From: Chitinophagales bacterium
GTDB lineage: Bacteria > Bacteroidota > Bacteroidia > Chitinophagales > Saprospiraceae
Direction: 5' to 3'
Assembly (NCBI GenBank): GCA_013298845.1
Contig: JAAFJN010000035.1
Location: 1-54,108 of the forward strand
Length of the DNA: 54,108 bases
The notes beneath the pieces are model-generated. The model was given only the letters and a program-made list of their open reading frames with translations. It made no database searches and was not told where the DNA came from. Each line of letters opens with the position of its first letter. Position 1 is the stretch's first letter. Below are positions 9,029 through 19,305 of this stretch, piece after piece. The position numbers and the translations under genes were made by a program.

Positions 9029-9898
9029 ATGAAAAAAATGATGTTGCTGCCAGGCATCGGGGTATGTATTGCCCTCACACTGGCCATCGCCCCCACCGCA
9101 TCGGCACAAGGGCAAGAACCCCAGGAAATTGAAAACACCGCACCTCCGGCTGAACCCCTCAACGACTTTACGGAACGGCACGTGGTGGCCGAAAAACAAG
9201 TGCTCAAACACGCCCCCATCCGTGAAGCGGACATTTTGTGGGAAACGCGCATTTGGCGGGTGATTGATACCCGCGAAAAAATGAACCTGCCGTTTGTAGC
9301 CCCCGAATCGCCTTTATTTTCCATTTTACAGGAAGCCGTTGAAACGGGTAAACTCACGGCGTACAGCACCGAAAGTGACAAATTTGACCGCCCGCTGGCC
9401 ATGGCCGATCTCACTCAAATGCTGAACCGGATTGACACCGTTGTTGTGTTCAACATGGACACGGGCGAGGAAGAGGTGAAAACGGTTCAAAACAGCATTA
9501 ACTGGGAGGATGTAAAACGGTTTCGGATTAAAGAGGCGTGGTTTTTTGACAAAAATCAGGGTACTTTACGCCACCGGATTCTCGGTATTGCGCCCATGAT
9601 TGACGAAAAAAACGAACAGGGCGACTTTTTGTACGAACGCCCCTTGTTTTGGGTGCACTACCCATCGGCCCGTTCGGTTTTGGCCCGGCACAAAGCCATC
9701 GCCTCCAACAATGTGGCGGCCACCACTACCTGGGAAGACATGTTTGAACAACGGTATTTCGCCTCCTACATCTCCAAAGAATCGAACATGTACGACCGCC
9801 GTCTCAGCGATTACCTCACCGGGGTTGACCTGCTGATGGAAGGTCAAAAAATTGAAGACGAACTCTTCAACCGCGAACACGACCTCTGGAGTTGGTAG
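9029..9898 (+). CDS. gldN: GldN-family gliding motility / type IX secretion protein
   Basis: A 289-residue secreted protein. The signal peptide is residues 1-26 (cleavage after ASA). The mature part carries the GldN pattern: SPLFSILQEAVETGKLTAY, RIDTVVVFNMDTGEEE, FRIKEAWFFDKNQGTLRHRILGIAP and PLFWVHYPSAR. In Flavobacterium and Porphyromonas (PorN) this protein forms, with GldK, the periplasmic ring attached to the outer membrane of the T9SS. GldN usually closes a gldKLMN operon; here it stands alone. The K, L and M genes must lie elsewhere, or this is an extra copy. A second GldN-like gene is at 13355-14377. Confidence 0.88.
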   Translation: MKKMMLLPGIGVCIALTLAIAPTASAQGQEPQEIENTAPPAEPLNDFTERHVVAEKQVLKHAPIREADILWETRIWRVIDTREKMNLPFVAPESPLFSILQEAVETGKLTAYSTESDKFDRPLAMADLTQMLNRIDTVVVFNMDTGEEEVKTVQNSINWEDVKRFRIKEAWFFDKNQGTLRHRILGIAPMIDEKNEQGDFLYERPLFWVHYPSARSVLARHKAIASNNVAATTTWEDMFEQRYFASYISKESNMYDRRLSDYLTGVDLLMEGQKIEDELFNREHDLWSW

Positions 9899-10354: not shown

Positions 10355-11710
10355 ATGGATATTCTGATCAAGGTAGGCCAATTGTTATTAAGCCTTTCTA
10401 TCCTGATTGTTTTGCACGAAATGGGACACTTTTTCCCGGCAAAATGGTTTAAAACCCAAGTTGACAAATTTTACCTCTTTTTTGACGCTCCACCTTTTAA
10501 CAGTCTTTGGAAGAAAAAAGTAGGCGATACAGAATACGGTATTGGGTGGTTGCCCTTGGGCGGTTACGTGAAAATTGCCGGTATGGTGGACGAAAGTATG
10601 GACACCGAATTCAAAGATAAAGAACCTCAACCTTGGGAATTCCGGTCAAAACCAGCCTGGCAACGCCTTATTATTATGTTAGGCGGGGTTACGGTCAACT
10701 TTATCCTGGGCTTTTTCATCCTCGGTATGTTATTGTGGGGCTACGGTAAACAATACCTGCCCAATTCCGAAGCCAAGCAATACGGCGTCGCATTCGATTC
10801 CATCCTGATTCAGCAAGGTTTCCAAAATGGCGATTTAATCACCAAAATTGGCAATGTACCCAACGACCGCTTCGATCCGGTGCAATTGTTGGAAAAAGTG
10901 ATTTTGGGCAACGAACGCTCCGTTACGGTCATTCGCAACGGCCAGGAACAAACAATCACGGTAAACGAAAACATTGCCCGGCAGGTCACCGACCGCGGAG
11001 TGCCTAAAAGTGCCCTGCTTTCGCCGCGTTTCCCCTTTATTGTGGAACAACTGGCCCCTAATAGTCCGGCGGAAAAAGCCGGGGTATTACCGGGTGACCA
11101 AGTGATCAGTTTCAACGGGGTGGGCACTGAATTTTACGATCAGTTTGTCCGCGAAGCGCAAAAAAACAAAGGGAAACCCGCCGATTTGGGTATCGTGCGC
11201 AACGGCGACAGCATTCGGGTAAGCCTTACCCTGAGCGAAGAAGGCACTATTGGGGTGTACGCACGTCCATTAAACAAACTATTCAAATTTGAACGGGAAG
11301 ATTATACCCTGCTCCGCGCCATTCCCGAAGGCTACAACGAAGGTGTTAACTTTTTGAAAACGCAGATTTCGGCCTTTGGAAAAATGTTTACCGGTCAAAT
11401 TTCGCCCAACAAAAACCTGGGTAGTTTTATCAGCATCGGCAATATGTTCCCGGCGCAATTCAGTTGGGAAACGTTTTGGCACATGACGGCTACCCTCAGC
11501 CTGATCTTGGCCTTTATGAACCTGCTGCCCATTCCCGCCCTCGATGGTGGTTACGTGGTATTCTTGATTTGGGAAGTGATTACGGGACGGAAAGTGAGCG
11601 ATAATTTCCTCGAAAAAGCCGTCACCGTCGGATTTTTCCTGCTCATGGCCCTCATGATTTACGCCTTTGGCCTCGATCTCTGGCGGCATATTTTCTCTAA
11701 GTTTTTCTAA
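10355..11710 (+). CDS. rseP: RIP metalloprotease RseP (site-2 protease)
   Basis: A 451-residue intramembrane zinc protease that cuts membrane-bound substrates such as anti-sigma factors and leftover signal peptides. Helix 1 carries HEMGH (residues 21-25), with the zinc ligands His21 and His25 and the catalytic Glu22. The third zinc ligand is Asp397 in NLLPIPALDGG (389-399). Two PDZ-like regions lie between (about 130-210 and 215-300; the second has SPAEKAGVLPGDQVISFNG). Length and order are normal for the family. Its stop overlaps the hscB start by one base (TAATG), so the two genes are co-translated. A Bacteroidota -7 box lies 72 nt upstream. Confidence 0.95.
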   Translation: MDILIKVGQLLLSLSILIVLHEMGHFFPAKWFKTQVDKFYLFFDAPPFNSLWKKKVGDTEYGIGWLPLGGYVKIAGMVDESMDTEFKDKEPQPWEFRSKPAWQRLIIMLGGVTVNFILGFFILGMLLWGYGKQYLPNSEAKQYGVAFDSILIQQGFQNGDLITKIGNVPNDRFDPVQLLEKVILGNERSVTVIRNGQEQTITVNENIARQVTDRGVPKSALLSPRFPFIVEQLAPNSPAEKAGVLPGDQVISFNGVGTEFYDQFVREAQKNKGKPADLGIVRNGDSIRVSLTLSEEGTIGVYARPLNKLFKFEREDYTLLRAIPEGYNEGVNFLKTQISAFGKMFTGQISPNKNLGSFISIGNMFPAQFSWETFWHMTATLSLILAFMNLLPIPALDGGYVVFLIWEVITGRKVSDNFLEKAVTVGFFLLMALMIYAFGLDLWRHIFSKFF

Positions 11711-12237
11711 TGAACTACTTTGAATTTATGGGGCTTCCCGTTGCTTTTAACATTGACGAAGCAGCCCTGCGAAAAAAATACTACGCCAATAGCCGGGATA
11801 TTCACCCCGATTTGTTCTCGTTGTCCGACGAAGGTCAACGCGCTTGGGCATTGGAACAAACCACCCTGAACAACGAAGCCTGGGCCGTTTTGTCGGATGC
11901 CGATAAAAGAATGGCGTACGTGTTGCGCCTCAAAGGGAAGTTGACCGACGAGGCAAAAAATGAAACCCTGCCCCAGGATTTTTTGATGGAAATGATGGAT
12001 ATTAACGAAGCCATCATGGATTTGCAGATGGATTTTGACCAGGAACGGTACGAAAAAACCCTCCGGGAAGTAGATGAACTGGAAAAAAACTTGCAGGACT
12101 CGGTGCAAAATATCTTCGATAATTATTCAGAATCCACCGAAAACGACGAAGATTTGGAAAAAGTGAAAAATTTTTTTCTAAAAAAGAAATATTTCTTGCG
12201 CATTCGAAAAAACCTCTTTACCTTTGCGTCCGCTTAG
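11710..12237 (+). CDS. hscB: HscB-type iron-sulfur co-chaperone (J-domain protein)
   Basis: A 175-residue co-chaperone that delivers the IscU scaffold to the Hsp70 HscA during Fe-S cluster assembly. The N-terminal J-domain has YYANSRDIHPDLF with the essential HPD at residues 32-34. The C-terminal helical domain (about 90-170) would bind IscU and includes FLMEMMDINEAIMDL, typical of HscB. Zinc-finger cysteines of the eukaryotic type are absent, as expected. It is coupled to rseP by a one-base overlap. The end of the gene (12219-12226) also carries a -7 box that probably drives the tRNA gene 9 bp downstream of it. Confidence 0.92.
   Translation: MNYFEFMGLPVAFNIDEAALRKKYYANSRDIHPDLFSLSDEGQRAWALEQTTLNNEAWAVLSDADKRMAYVLRLKGKLTDEAKNETLPQDFLMEMMDINEAIMDLQMDFDQERYEKTLREVDELEKNLQDSVQNIFDNYSESTENDEDLEKVKNFFLKKKYFLRIRKNLFTFASA
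12219..12226 (+). promoter_or_regulatory. tRNA-Leu promoter inside the 3' end of hscB
   Basis: TACCTTTG is an exact TAnnTTTG element, within the last codons of hscB and 20 bp before the tRNA. Upstream TTCTTG supplies a possible -33 element. Confidence 0.55.
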
Positions 12238-13261: not shown

Positions 13262-13355
13262 TAAAATATGAGAGATAAGTGATGAGTGATGAGTGATGAG
13301 TGATGATTTTTTTATTTATCTCTCATCACTCATATCTCATCACTCATATCTCTCC
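13262..13355. repeat. Low-complexity GTGATGAG/ATGAGAGATAAG repeat with inverted arms
   Basis: Four or more tandem GTGATGA words (13280-13306) face their complements CTCATCACTCATATCTCTC (about 13321-13353) across a T-rich loop, so the block can fold on itself. It fills the space between the LysM gene start and the GldN-like gene stop. It belongs to the same word family as 5828-5919. Confidence 0.8.
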
Positions 13356-14377
13356 TAAAAGCATTTGTGGTAAAAAAGTATTTTTGGGTACGTGGGCGCA
13401 TTTTTTTCGGTGTCGAGCACCCAAAAACGCGGGGCTACGGCGACCAAACGCGTGTATAGTTTTTGAGCGGTGGCATCCCAAAACCATTCTTCCATCAATT
13501 GCAATTCCGTTACTTGTTGTTGGTCAATGCCGCTGTACAACTCCTGTTGAAACTCGGTGTTGGTTTGCGGATCAAATACCTTAATTAATTGGGTGCAGGC
13601 AAACAAACATTCGCGTTCTTTTCCGCGCACGGGTTTGCCCGTTTCGGGTTCGTACAACGTAATATTTTCGTCGCCGCGCAACCGATCAATTAAACGATCA
13701 ATAATCGGGCCAGTTGTATTTTTTATCTCCTGCCAGCGATCGGGGCCGGGGCTGGTTGCGTGGGTAATGTACTTTACTGCCCAGGTTATATCTTCTTCGT
13801 TGGGGGTGTTTTCCCACGGTGCGTCCGGAACGGCCATCCAGTAGGGCGTAAAACCCGAATCAAAACAAGGGGCAATGGCGATGGTACGCATGTGAAAATT
13901 AGCCGTGGCGTGGTCGTAGGACAAAACTTGCCGGACTTTTATCCAGGTGGCTTCAAACGGGAAGGCTTTCAGGCCCGATATTTCCACTTTTTCCTCGTAC
14001 GTTTCGGGATTAAAGGTAACTACAGTGTCCATACGAGACATGTAGGCCAGCGCTGCTTCAAAATTCAGGGGGCGCGTCAGTTCGGGATCGGCGAAAATAG
14101 ACCACTGCCCCGACTTGACCAATTCCCACAGTTTGGGGTGCAACGAATGGTTGGGCGCGGGTATGTGCCACTCATTTTGCTCCACGGTTAATTTCAGGAT
14201 ACCCGCACTTGCCATATCCGGTTCTTGGGCGAGGGAAGGATCTGCCGGTAAAGTCAGTTCAATAAATGCCACCCAATCGGCGGGAATTCCGGCGGATTTG
14301 GTGGTTGTTTGGGCCAAAGAAACAAGCGGTAACGAGATAAAAACAACGCTAAAAAAGGCAAGTACGGCTCTATGCAT
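13355..14377 (-). CDS. GldN-like protein with two tandem GldN-type modules
   Basis: A 340-residue exported protein with a signal peptide at residues 1-22. Module 1 (about 79-190) follows GldN closely: LWELVKSGQWSIFADPEL, SRMDTVVTFNPETYEEKVE, WIKVRQVLSYDHATANFHMR, TIAIAP. Module 2 (about 222-338) repeats it: RLRGDENITLYEPETGKPV, VFDPQTNTEFQQE, ELQLMEEWFWDATAQKLYTR, LVAVAPRF, PKILFYHK. The nearby gldN (9029-9898) has one module. The natural reading is a paralogue that arose by duplication and fusion, perhaps a variant ring part of the T9SS or an unrelated use of the fold. The start at 14377 gives a proper signal peptide; the longer frame to 14428 does not. Confidence 0.72.
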   Translation of the reverse strand: MHRAVLAFFSVVFISLPLVSLAQTTTKSAGIPADWVAFIELTLPADPSLAQEPDMASAGILKLTVEQNEWHIPAPNHSLHPKLWELVKSGQWSIFADPELTRPLNFEAALAYMSRMDTVVTFNPETYEEKVEISGLKAFPFEATWIKVRQVLSYDHATANFHMRTIAIAPCFDSGFTPYWMAVPDAPWENTPNEEDITWAVKYITHATSPGPDRWQEIKNTTGPIIDRLIDRLRGDENITLYEPETGKPVRGKERECLFACTQLIKVFDPQTNTEFQQELYSGIDQQQVTELQLMEEWFWDATAQKLYTRLVAVAPRFWVLDTEKNAPTYPKILFYHKCF

Positions 14378-14482
14378 AAATTTTGACTGCAATTTTTTAT
14401 CCACAAACGGAATTTGGCGGTAAATCATTGCAATTTTGCTTGATTTTATGAAAGTTTAGGAAAGAGGCTGTTCAAGCGCATG

Positions 14483-15729: not shown

Positions 15730-17088
15730 TCAGAACAACAAATACATCAATACCGTCACCACAATACCCAATATATTTACCACGTCGTTATTGCACCAAT
15801 GCCAGCCTTTGATCAATTGTTCACGCGGGCCGGTTTCGGTAATTTCTCCGGCTTCGTTGCGGTATTGCGCCTGCAACAAACTGCCCAAAATACTGTCCAC
15901 CAACATCCCGACGAAGCCCCAAACCGCGATGGAAATAGTCATTGGCCATTCCCAGCGGTCAAACATCAGCAATGCGGCAATCAGCGCCACCAAAAGGCTG
16001 CCCAAAAGCCCGCCCAAGGTCCCGGCCCAACTCACCCCACCCGATAACCCTGAGGTAATGGGTTTAAAGGTGATAATATCCACTGTGCGTTGCCGAAAAT
16101 ATTTACCCACTTCGCTACTCACGGTATCGGACATCGCAATGGCAAACGTAAGGATAAAAATATCGAATGGAAGGTGCAGCAAAGAGACCAGCATGGCGGG
16201 CAGGCCGTTGGCAAATACCTGCATCGCGTTACGCGCCTCCGAAGCCGGCTTTTTTTCGTTTAATTTGGATAAAAGACTACCCACCACCAAAAAGGCAAGG
16301 GGAAAAACGAGTGCCAGACGCCCCATGTACAAAGCAATCCAAACGCCCATATAACCCGCCGAAGTGGCGCCGTTGCACGTTAACCAGCCCCTTTTTACCA
16401 AAAAAGGCAAGATCAGCGCGGCGCAAAACAAGATCGTAACCCCATCCTGCGGAATAAAACCCTTGGGTTCTAAGTACTGTAGAGTAACGGCAATCACCAC
16501 CGGTATCCAAAAATTATCACTGCCCCGCCACGAAAACATTTCCGCCCCCGTGGCCAAAAACGCAATCATAATCATCGTTAGCCAATAACCCTCCGTATCG
16601 GGTCGAAACTGACACGCCAAAATAATAACCGCCGATAAAAAGAATACGAATGACCCCAACACCGATTTTTGTTCCATAAAAGGCACCCAGTACGAACGGG
16701 CAAAGCGCATTCCCACCAGCCCGGCCAAGGCATCGCTGATGGCCAAAATGAGCATGGCCGTTACAATAGCAACGGTTTCGATCCGACCGGATACCAGCAA
16801 CAGCCCGAATGACAACGGAAACAAAGCGATTCCCCAACTTTGTCCAGTGCTGATATTCAATATTTTGTAATGAATGACCCCAAAAAGCACGGCGCTAAAA
16901 AACAAAAAAATGTAACCTAATAAAACCGGGTCTGAATAATTATGGGTCGCCACCGCACAACTCAAAATTGCCGACAAATGGAGTACCTTGCGCAGTTGTG
17001 GTATATTGTCGGGGAGTATTTGAGACAATAATTGCACCACAAACGTAGCCAGGGTTATTAAAATAAATAGCAAAAACAACAATAACAT
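15730..17088 (-). CDS. Membrane fusion protein: VTE5-like prenyl-alcohol (phytol) kinase domain + DUF92 (VTE6-like) domain
   Basis: A 452-residue polytopic membrane protein. The N-terminal half (about 10-215) resembles the phytol/dolichol kinase-CTP transferase family: RKVLHLSAI, SDALAGLVGMRFARSYW and KSVLGSFVFFLSA. The C-terminal half (about 235-452) is DUF92/TMEM19: CNGATSAGYMGV, VGSLLSKL, ARNAMQVFANGLP, SDTVSSEVGKYF, KPITSGLSGGVSWAGTLGG, DSILGSLLQAQY and NNDVVNILG. In plants and cyanobacteria VTE5 phosphorylates phytol and VTE6 (DUF92) phosphorylates phytyl-phosphate; here the two are one chain. A homogentisate-phytyltransferase-like gene is next door, so a two-step prenyl diphosphate salvage enzyme is a fair inference. 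Its start codon overlaps the divergent methyltransferase start (CATG). Confidence 0.8.
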   Translation of the reverse strand: MLLLFLLFILITLATFVVQLLSQILPDNIPQLRKVLHLSAILSCAVATHNYSDPVLLGYIFLFFSAVLFGVIHYKILNISTGQSWGIALFPLSFGLLLVSGRIETVAIVTAMLILAISDALAGLVGMRFARSYWVPFMEQKSVLGSFVFFLSAVIILACQFRPDTEGYWLTMIMIAFLATGAEMFSWRGSDNFWIPVVIAVTLQYLEPKGFIPQDGVTILFCAALILPFLVKRGWLTCNGATSAGYMGVWIALYMGRLALVFPLAFLVVGSLLSKLNEKKPASEARNAMQVFANGLPAMLVSLLHLPFDIFILTFAIAMSDTVSSEVGKYFRQRTVDIITFKPITSGLSGGVSWAGTLGGLLGSLLVALIAALLMFDRWEWPMTISIAVWGFVGMLVDSILGSLLQAQYRNEAGEITETGPREQLIKGWHWCNNDVVNILGIVVTVLMYLLF

Positions 17089-17851
17089 GATAGTAAAAGA
17101 ATTGGAGGATTACGCTTGGTTTCCCGCAATTTTGAGGCGATTCCAAACCGAGTTTATTGGTTCAATGGTCGCGTGGACCCATATTTATCGGCCCATTGCG
17201 CCGTTGTTAGACGCAATGATGCACGAAAATAACACCCGAAAAATGATAGACTTATGCTCTGGTAGTGCGCACCCTGTTTTGTACCTGACCCAATTTTGGG
17301 AAAATGCCGTTCAAATTCACTTGACCGATAAATTTCCGACGGAGCCAGTTCTTTCAGAATCAGTACCGCATCAAATTATCGTTAGGCGCACAAGTTACGA
17401 CGTTTTATCGGCCTCGTTTTCAAAAGATACAATATACTCGATGTTTAACGCTTTTCACCATTTTAACGACCAAGAACAAGTTTATATCCTGGAGCAATTT
17501 GAAAAAGCCAATGCCCCGTTTTTGATTGTCGAAATTTTGCAACCGAATCTCTTTGAAATTGTTAAGATTGCCGTTACCACGACCATTGGTCAACTTTTTA
17601 CGGCTCCGTTTATTGCTCCATTTTCGTGGCGAAGAATCTTATTCACGTACATTATACCCGTCAATCTCCTGACAGTGACTGTTGACGGGATCATCTCCGT
17701 AACCAAATCCAAAACAGCCACGGCGTACCAGCAACTGGCCAACCGCGTACAAACCACCGATTATTCGATTGAAGCCAAACAAATACGCACGCGCTTTTTT
17801 ACCACTTTGACCATCATTCAGGGCACACCAACGCATGTTACAAACACTTAA
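17087..17851 (+). CDS. Class I SAM-dependent methyltransferase-like protein beside a UbiA prenyltransferase
   Basis: A 254-residue protein. Motif I is IDLCSGSA (residues 54-61) and an acidic strand end comes at IHLTDKFP. MFNAFHHFNDQEQ is where motif IV is expected. The N-terminus (LEDYAWFPAILRRFQTEF...YRPIAPLL) and the C-terminal FTYIIPVNLLTVTVDGIIS block, weakly hydrophobic, are marks of a Bacteroidota family I recall as uncharacterised methyltransferases. It overlaps the UbiA gene by 17 bp, so the two are translated together and a role in methylating a prenylated aromatic is possible. It does not look like the plant VTE3 or VTE4 enzymes. The start is shared, base for base, with the divergent gene. 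Confidence 0.7.
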   Translation: MIVKELEDYAWFPAILRRFQTEFIGSMVAWTHIYRPIAPLLDAMMHENNTRKMIDLCSGSAHPVLYLTQFWENAVQIHLTDKFPTEPVLSESVPHQIIVRRTSYDVLSASFSKDTIYSMFNAFHHFNDQEQVYILEQFEKANAPFLIVEILQPNLFEIVKIAVTTTIGQLFTAPFIAPFSWRRILFTYIIPVNLLTVTVDGIISVTKSKTATAYQQLANRVQTTDYSIEAKQIRTRFFTTLTIIQGTPTHVTNT

Positions 17852-18731
17852 AACACTGTGGGACTTCACCCGTCCGCACACCATTATTGGCTCTTTTTTG
17901 AGCATTACCACGTTATTTATCCTCGCCAGTGCACCCGGCGAACGGCTCCTGCACCTGCCGCTGTACGGCTGGACCCTGCTGGCAGCCCTCGCCTGTAACG
18001 TGTTTATTACCGGCCTCAACCAAATCACCGACGTGGACATGGACAAAATCAACAAACCTTTTTTGCCCCTGGCCAGTGGTGCATTATCCATGCAAGGTGC
18101 ACAGTACATCGTTGGGGTAAGTCTGGTGCTCTGCCTCGCTGCGGCCTGGATTGCGGCACCGGTGATACTGGTCATTATGAGTTTCATTTTGCTCATCGGA
18201 ACGGCCTACTCTGCCCCACCGCTGCGCCTCAAACGGCACCACGTTCCGGCGGCGCTGTGCATTATTGTGGTGCGGGGTGTACTCGTTAATCTGGCGATTG
18301 GCGCGGCGTTCGACTGGCAATTGTACGGTCAAATCGTACACTGGCAGGAATGGACGGTACTGATGATTTTTGTGTCGGTTTTTAGTTTGGCCATTGCGTG
18401 GTTTAAAGATTTGTACGATACCAAAGGCGATGATTTGTACCAAATTCGCACGTTTCCGTTGCTGTACAGCGTTCAGTCAACGTACAAATGGGGCAATGGT
18501 CTGGTTGTGTTGGCGTACGTAGCGGCCATTGGCTTAAGTTGGAGCATCAGCGGGGCGGCCAAATGGATTTTGGTGGGCGGCCACGCCCTTTTAATGCTTT
18601 TGTTTATCGGGCACGCCCTGCGGTCGTCGGTGGGTACCCGCGAAGGTATGTACCGTTTTTACATGGTTTTTTGGATATTTTTTTTCGCCGAATACGTGTT
18701 GTTTTTGGGGTATGGCGGAGCGGGAAAATGA
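17835..18731 (+). CDS. UbiA-family prenyltransferase, homogentisate phytyltransferase (HPT/VTE2)-like
   Basis: A 298-residue membrane prenyltransferase with about nine hydrophobic segments. The first Asp-rich motif is NQITDVDMDKINKPFLPLA (62-80), which holds the HPT-type NQxxDxxxDxINKPxLPLASG rather than the NDxxD of menaquinone or heme enzymes. RPHTIIGSFLS (14-24) and SAPPLRLKRH (126-135) are also HPT-like. The second motif is KDLYDTKGD (191-199), followed by RTFP. HPT joins phytyl or geranylgeranyl diphosphate to homogentisate with loss of CO2, the committed step to tocopherols. The acceptor here is inferred, not shown; other aromatic acids are possible. The fused VTE5/DUF92 gene 750 bp away would supply the prenyl donor. 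The stop is followed at once by a GTGAAAAGTGAAGAG repeat. Confidence 0.82.
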   Translation: MLQTLKTLWDFTRPHTIIGSFLSITTLFILASAPGERLLHLPLYGWTLLAALACNVFITGLNQITDVDMDKINKPFLPLASGALSMQGAQYIVGVSLVLCLAAAWIAAPVILVIMSFILLIGTAYSAPPLRLKRHHVPAALCIIVVRGVLVNLAIGAAFDWQLYGQIVHWQEWTVLMIFVSVFSLAIAWFKDLYDTKGDDLYQIRTFPLLYSVQSTYKWGNGLVVLAYVAAIGLSWSISGAAKWILVGGHALLMLLFIGHALRSSVGTREGMYRFYMVFWIFFFAEYVLFLGYGGAGK

Positions 18732-18806
18732 GTGAAAAGTGAAAAATGAAGAGTGAAAAGTGAAGAGTAATGAGTGAAAAGTGGTGAGTGAAAAGTACAT
18801 TTTCAC
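18729..18806. repeat. GTGAAAAGTGAAGAG low-complexity repeat
   Basis: Five or six imperfect copies of GAGTGAAAAGTGAAGAG-like words begin inside the last codon of the UbiA gene and run for 78 bp. It resembles the GATGAG word repeats elsewhere in the window but uses a different word. The remaining gap to 18917 shows nothing else. Confidence 0.75.
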
Positions 18807-18917
18807 TGCTAAAAGCGGCCGGACAGTTTGAGAAAACGATATTTCGTTCAAAGTTTGTTGTGTTTTTTACTTTAAATAACTGATAAGAAAATTTTGGAAA
18901 AGTAAAAATAAACTAAA

Positions 18918-18948
18918 AAAAGAGCAATTGGTTTCCCAATCGCTCTTG
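18918..18948 (-). terminator. Terminator of the small lipoprotein gene
   Basis: AAGAGC-A-ATTGG (18920-18931) pairs with CCAAT-C-GCTCTT (18936-18947), with one A/C mismatch. On the minus strand a TTTTTTT run follows. It lies just past the stop of the 18973-19305 gene. Confidence 0.8.
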
Positions 18949-18972
18949 CGTACCAACAATTCTACTCTCCTT

Positions 18973-19305
18973 TTATTGTTGCAAAAAACCGGCGGCTAAC
19001 AGCGCTGCTTTGTGTTCTTCGGCGCTTTTGAACCGAATTACGTAGCCATTTTCGCAGGTACAAGCCTGGCATTGAAAATCGGAATTTTCTTTGGCAACGG
19101 CCAAATCGGACACGGTAACGCCCAGAGAATCGGTGAGAAATAACTCAACGGCTTGTTGGTGCGCGTTGGTGCCCGGCTCATAAGTGCCTTTTTGCCAGGG
19201 GTCGGCGCATTGGGTTTCGGCGCGGTAAAAATCGAGTAATCCATCATCCGTTTTTTTGCAGGAAAAAGCCAATACGGCCATCATTAATAACAAGGTTTGT
19301 TTCAT
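18973..19305 (-). CDS. Small predicted lipoprotein
   Basis: A 110-residue protein of unknown function. MKQTLLLMMAVLAFSCKK is a short lipoprotein signal with Cys16 as the lipid site. The mature part holds four more cysteines (ETQCADPW and CQACTC), likely disulfides or a metal site, and ends with a mixed alpha/beta part (YVIRFKSAEEHKAALLAAGF). No relatives come to mind. It stands alone on the minus strand and has its own terminator. Confidence 0.65.
   Translation of the reverse strand: MKQTLLLMMAVLAFSCKKTDDGLLDFYRAETQCADPWQKGTYEPGTNAHQQAVELFLTDSLGVTVSDLAVAKENSDFQCQACTCENGYVIRFKSAEEHKAALLAAGFLQQ

Follow-up and report, generated by a model that had tools for sequence, protein, structure and literature searches.

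We analyzed a 54,108-nucleotide stretch of DNA, hereafter called the window, which constitutes contig C29 (JAAFJN010000035.1) of a Chitinophagales bacterium (assembly GCA_013298845.1; genome of 6.37 Mb, 98.14% complete). At positions 15730 to 18731, it carries three adjacent genes, encoding a membrane protein in which a putative VTE5-type prenol kinase is fused to a DUF92 domain, a methyltransferase-like protein (MT21), and a UbiA-family protein assigned to homogentisate phytyltransferase (HPT). With slightly better than even confidence, we read this cluster as the phytol-salvage branch of a vitamin-E-type pathway, including putative kinase, HPT, and methyltransferase activities. All three genes were confirmed as open frames where a first-pass annotation, made from the DNA letters, had placed them side by side.

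The three genes of the cluster

The UbiA-family gene (17835 to 18731, plus strand, 298 amino acids) scored 265.8 bits against NF009525, the NCBI curated equivalog model of HPT, exceeding the cut-off of 226, while the next best of 18 families, chlorophyll synthase (ChlG), reached 56.4 bits; its nearest sequences in the PDB were chlorophyll a synthases (E value of 4.6e-6). Both motifs on which the first-pass annotation had based the same assignment are present, and the patterns NQxxDxxxDxxNKP and KDxxDxxGD were found in all 30 HPT sequences compared, the window's among them. The protein contains DVDMD and DLYDTKGD, matching the DX[D/E]XD and DXXDXXXD wording of the HPT motifs, and its N, D, D, D, and K residues are spaced as sites 161, 165, 167, 169, and 173 of docked barley HPT (PMC10617047; this and all other papers are cited from excerpts). 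Family profiles did not group it with menaquinone, heme, or archaeal-lipid enzymes, an outcome that had been named in advance as speaking against the assignment. These data support the protein being an HPT by family, its catalysis being putative.

Five other UbiA matches were found in the window's genome. Those over their cut-offs were a heme o synthase and a UbiA-like polyprenyltransferase (TIGR01475, near MqnP), those below were decaprenyl-phosphate phosphoribosyltransferase-like and PRK12872-like, and the fifth, a short protein, had no family match at an E value of ≤1e-30. The chlorophyll synthase family was likewise unmatched among these five proteins (E ≤ 1e-30), other photosynthesis genes not having been sought; the first-pass description of the host as non-photosynthetic follows from its taxonomic placement, in a group not known for photosynthesis.

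The gene of the fusion protein (15730 to 17088, minus strand, 452 amino acids) is divergent from that of MT21 (17087 to 17851, plus strand, 254 amino acids), and both start codons lie within one CATG (17086 to 17089); the MT21 and HPT frames, both on the plus strand, overlap by 17 bases. The C-terminal half of the fusion (residues 223 to 445) is a DUF92 domain (PF01940, 177 bits; cut-off, 27.5), which we take to be the family of VTE6, and in this half the predicted VTE5-DUF92 fusion was borne out. In the N-terminal half (about residues 1 to 222), R33, K34, H37, D119, A122, G126, K141, S142, G145, and E183 are invariant in all 12 fusion proteins. The residues from D119 to G145 resemble, as we judge it, the cytidine triphosphate (CTP) motif of dolichol kinases, and the remaining four form an RKxxH clamp with a glutamate 150 residues past the arginine. 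Their spacing equals that of the clamp (R29, K30, and H33) and hinge glutamate (E179) in a computed model of a Plasmodium prenol kinase (PMC10849223).

MT21 holds a DLCSGS stretch, and six of eight relatives scanned reached Methyltransf_25, although below the cut-off (best E value of 3.4e-4). It is probably a divergent class I S-adenosylmethionine-dependent methyltransferase; the gene announced by the first-pass annotation is there, its identity being less firm than claimed, below every curated threshold. A PDB sequence search with MT21 gave no match. Membership of MT21 in either of the two methyltransferase families of related genomes was considered and rejected, profile comparison giving probabilities of only 1.8 and 5.1. 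AlphaFold models of the fusion protein and MT21 were poor (mean predicted local distance difference test scores of 52.7 and 34.1, respectively); they were built from three and two sequences. Strong MT21 matches (E < 1e-120) came from the window's genome (G000), G342, and G240, which are three of the four rows behind its model, and genome bin15 also carries the gene. Of the 80 genomes examined in family f1 (see below), eight had weaker relatives (L174 to L181), and seven of the eight lack HPT.

Pathway genes in the window's genome and its relatives

The window's genome encodes HPPD, the homogentisate source (438 bits; cut-off, 277), the lack of which the first-pass annotation had named as refuting. 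The surroundings of HPPD, out to about 9 kb, hold eleven other frames, of which seven were scanned; homogentisate dioxygenase was not among these and was not sought elsewhere. The annotation had also noted that no cyclase (VTE1) was visible and had suggested a genome-wide search, which agreed: PF14249, the tocopherol cyclase family, gave zero matches at an E value of ≤10. The same search found no geranylgeranyl reductase (GGR) over the cut-off (best match, 72.7 bits versus 158.8), the best match scoring higher with GoxB/LodB maturase models, likewise below their cut-offs. Since the genome has neither a PF14249 cyclase nor a GGR over the cut-off, salvage of a prenyl alcohol is the likely source of the side chain. 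The genome also lacked any match to the VTE3-like (MPBQ methyltransferase) protein of its relatives at an E value of ≤1e-20, and MT21 might serve instead of that enzyme.

Across the order, 29 of 396 genomes had an HPT over the cut-off, every one of them in family f1; in a sample of 395 genomes from the whole phylum, two passed, and these too belong to f1. The 29 HPT-bearing genomes belong to nine genera. Co-occurrence was determined in 80 f1 genomes, namely, these 29 and 51 HPT-negative ones taken in list order (26 with and 25 without PF14249); none of 14 named control genomes exceeded the HPT or PF14249 cut-off, a set that shows no false positives and contains no positive control. A close GGR (E < 1e-180) was present in 23/29 HPT-positive versus 0/51 HPT-negative genomes, and a VTE3-like methyltransferase (E ≤ 1e-20) was present in 22/29 versus 0/51; at an E value of ≤0.001, which includes weaker flavoproteins, GGR matches occurred in 64 of the 80. 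DUF92 was found in 23/29 versus 4/51 (Fisher test, 7.9e-11, uncorrected for kinship). PF14249 exceeded its cut-off in 26 of the 29, compared to 53 of the 367 HPT-negative genomes of the whole order. The HPT-negative members tested of HPT-bearing genera (nine in g1, one in g13, and two in g23) had neither a close GGR nor a VTE3-like gene. The co-occurrence of GGR, VTE3-like, and cyclase-family genes with HPT indicates that a near-complete tocopherol-type gene set, as predicted from these families, exists in this Bacteroidota family.

HPPD was not discriminating (28/29 versus 46/51; Fisher test, 0.41), which bears on another reading of the UbiA enzyme, in which its acceptor is an aromatic other than homogentisate or its product is a respiratory quinone with no link to tocopherol. 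UbiA motifs are common to enzymes with different acceptors, and homogentisate use is a prediction here, but the distance between the HPT model and the next family, together with HPPD in nearly every HPT-positive genome, albeit also in most HPT-negative ones, makes this reading quite improbable.

Every HPT-positive genome carries a close GGR or a DUF92 protein (17 both, 6 GGR only, and 6 DUF92 only). The fusion occurs in 11 of the 29, among them all six without a close GGR (Fisher test, 9.7e-4, uncorrected for kinship), as would be seen if the fusion were able to stand in for the de novo synthesis of phytyl diphosphate. The first-pass proposal that the cluster scavenges phytol or a similar prenyl alcohol thus found support in its salvage part. 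In twelve HPT-positive genomes (L115, L119, L122, L123, L127, L131, and others), DUF92 stood without a VTE5-like half, and no separate VTE5 was seen in the loci examined; for L116, L135, and L137, DUF92 lengths were taken from open frames.

Gene neighborhoods were compared for the HPT-positive genomes, leaving out L061 (G290). The fusion, MT21, and HPT stand together in the window, L009, L074, and L075, and the fusion and HPT stand together in L010 (the same as L076), so that the fusion adjoins HPT in five genomes. Elsewhere, GGR is accompanied by methyltransferase genes and HPT (e.g., L050, L052, and L054). In genus g5, two methyltransferases are present in some HPT neighborhoods and absent from others; among five g5 GGR regions read, three had a VTE3-like gene 5 to 6 kb from GGR, with a VTE4-like gene beside it in two of these, and in one region none of the nine neighbors scanned was a pathway gene by Pfam. 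The best NCBIfam matches of the relatives' two methyltransferases were UbiE/BioC-like and sarcosine/dimethylglycine- or cyclopropane-synthase-like, all below cut-offs, and we take their consensus sequences to read like plant VTE3 and VTE4. A hydrophobic stretch lies close to the C terminus in five VTE3-like proteins, as it does in the olive MPBQ methyltransferase (PMC11911349).

In a tree of 30 HPT sequences, the window, bin15, G328, G342, G240, and G254 (a long branch) split from the other 24 with support of 100/99. The VTE3-like gene was missing in all five members searched of this six-member side (bin15 was not among them) and in 2 of the 24 on the other. The genomes with strong MT21, G000, G342, and G240, are exactly the HPT-positive genomes without PF14249 (2.7e-4, uncorrected; two genera only). 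Judged by these searches, the window represents a divergent branch within the predicted tocopherol-type set, one that has no cyclase or VTE3-like gene.

The same three genomes are relevant to the possibility that the pathway ends in a chromanol (tocopherol) through a cyclase outside PF14249, with MT21 perhaps taking the place of the VTE3-like enzyme. This would fit the presence of PF14249 in all other HPT-positive genomes and the coincidence of its absence with MT21. However, the PF14249 search left no candidate cyclase in the window's genome, and in genus g1, the cyclases of the HPT-positive G328 and G254 lie among those of HPT-negative congeners, so the family may have another role; we consider a chromanol product unlikely. 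The cyclase tree as a whole mixes HPT-positive and HPT-negative genomes (seven changes), which again suggests that PF14249 may act otherwise in some genomes. For this reason, and because it also occurs in the 53 HPT-negative genomes of the order (e.g., at L182 to L216), PF14249 was rejected as a strict pathway marker.

The proposed route and its known counterparts

Phytol is the tail of chlorophyll. In the route that we infer, the N-terminal half of the fusion would phosphorylate phytol, probably derived from the chlorophyll of other organisms, presumably with CTP as VTE5 does. The DUF92 half would then add the second phosphate in the manner of VTE6, so that a single protein would make phytyl diphosphate. 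HPT would join phytyl diphosphate to homogentisate, supplied by HPPD encoded elsewhere, to form 2-methyl-6-phytyl-benzoquinol, the ring of which MT21 probably methylates. As no known cyclase is present, the product would stay a phytyl-benzoquinol or quinone. A methylated phytyl-benzoquinol appears the likeliest product, which would likely serve as a membrane antioxidant or redox lipid.

The main rival to phytol is an unsaturated prenol (geranylgeraniol or farnesol), or the cell's own geranylgeranyl diphosphate (GGPP), entering the same chemistry, which would yield a tocotrienol-type or plastoquinone-like product and make the fusion a general prenol-salvage kinase. No sequence feature of the cluster fixes which prenol is used; farnesol or geranylgeraniol is accepted by prenol kinases from other organisms (PMC10849223 and PMC9782597), and GGPP is usable by HPT in engineered plants (PMC10925712). 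The window's clade also deviates at a conserved HPT motif position: the window, G328, and bin15 (L009) have KDLYDTKGD, where the other 27 of the 30 sequences have proline at the fourth position. The barley study places one proline and one aspartate near the substrate (PMC10617047), and if these map onto the KDxPD stretch, as we infer, then tyrosine in place of proline could change the substrate. On the other hand, the curated model that fits (NF009525) is the phytyl one, and the close GGR, the would-be maker of the phytyl chain, is confined to HPT-positive genomes in the f1 sample. An unsaturated prenol is therefore a less probable substrate than phytol, although the most serious of the alternatives.

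Besides the tyrosine, several observations weigh against the phytol-salvage reading. The N-terminal half had no match to a kinase family such as CTP_transf_1 in any of the 12 fusions (Pfam and NCBIfam, E ≤ 10), and a PDB sequence search with the fusion gave none either, so its VTE5 assignment comes from the conserved residues, which weakly suggest a VTE5-like kinase; this half of the first-pass prediction is less firm than claimed. The narrower DUF92 model TIGR00297 gave the fusion 90.8 bits, below its cut-off of 205.85, and MT21 had no Pfam or NCBIfam match over the cut-off. The co-occurrence counts are not independent, since 17 of the 29 HPT-positive genomes fall in one genus (g5), and the finding that no HPT-positive genome lacks both GGR and DUF92 was rejected as evidence when taken alone (chance of 0.21 given the totals). 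Finally, the fusion and HPT are on different contigs in 7 of the 11 fusion-bearing HPT-positive genomes. This last point, like the lone DUF92 in four HPT-negative genomes, would also fit a fusion with some other function that came to lie beside HPT by accident, but we give this very little credence in view of the bias of DUF92 toward HPT-positive genomes and of the five genomes in which the fusion adjoins HPT.

Compared to the tocopherol pathway of plants and cyanobacteria (HPPD, VTE2/HPT, VTE3, VTE1, and VTE4), the window's genome shares HPT and HPPD, and most HPT-positive relatives add GGR, VTE3-like, and PF14249 genes; it differs in having no PF14249 cyclase or VTE3-like match, another methyltransferase-like gene, and a Bacteroidota host. 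With VTE5/VTE6 phytol salvage it has in common the DUF92 half and a half in which, as in prenol kinases, an RKxxH clamp is followed at a distance by a glutamate; it differs in that both halves are in one protein and that the VTE5-like half has diverged beyond the reach of the profile libraries searched. Vitamin-E-type pathways without photosynthesis are known from eukaryotes: tocopherol is reported from Euglena longa, which retains VTE5 and VTE6 (PMC7580956), and from Leishmania (PMC6443866), and Plasmodium is named as a further case (PMC5694494). Tocopherol was detected in those organisms, whereas the window and its relatives are bacteria known from genes alone. One review has tocochromanols come solely from photosynthetic organisms (PMC5745509), another mostly so, with Plasmodium as an exception (PMC5694494).

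The single parts (HPT, DUF92, prenol kinase, and HPPD) are already known, and a role for VTE6 was first proposed from bacterial genome comparison (PMC9782597). No report of Bacteroidota tocopherol genes or of a VTE5-VTE6 fusion was among the matches listed from open-license PubMed Central, a collection outside which most journals lie and which is thus no proof that they are unpublished; the excerpt of PMC8960797 makes no mention of tocopherol. Tentatively, and with less confidence than we have in phytol salvage by the cluster, we propose that the vitamin E genes of f1 form a nearly complete set of the plant kind in organisms that do not photosynthesize, of which the window would be a derived branch with a fusion converting phytol to phytyl diphosphate, a substitute methyltransferase, and an uncyclized phytyl-benzoquinone lipid. 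Should these gene sets be functional, vitamin-E-type lipids would be made by heterotrophic bacteria, in part from chlorophyll tails that they salvage. This would be relevant to how the plant pathway arose and changed, would provide a single natural protein that takes phytol to phytyl diphosphate, and would allow tests of why a non-photosynthetic cell wants a phytyl quinone.

Genomic setting of the locus

The G+C content of the cluster region is 0.481, compared to 0.475 ± 0.023 when the window is divided into 3-kb pieces. A scan of genome contigs with a single protein as the query gave two close loci, both in metagenome-assembled genomes of Chitinophagales bacteria; G328 is of the same genus as the window's genome. 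On plasmids, tblastn searches with the fusion (E ≤ 1e-3) and with HPT (E ≤ 1e-10) gave no relatives. Downstream of HPT (18731 to 18990), repeated GTGAAAAGTGAA-like units, a hairpin-like stretch, and then a T-rich end were seen by eye. On the other side of the cluster, positions 13355 to 14428 encode a GldN-family gliding protein (51.1 bits in two stretches; cut-off, 23), to which the frame at 9029 to 9898 appears similar by eye. Two genes, judged by eye to be RseP-like and HscB-like, are located some 10 kb or less from the cluster in the window (10355 to 12237) and again at the right end of L074 (G342, another genus), hinting at an inherited neighborhood.

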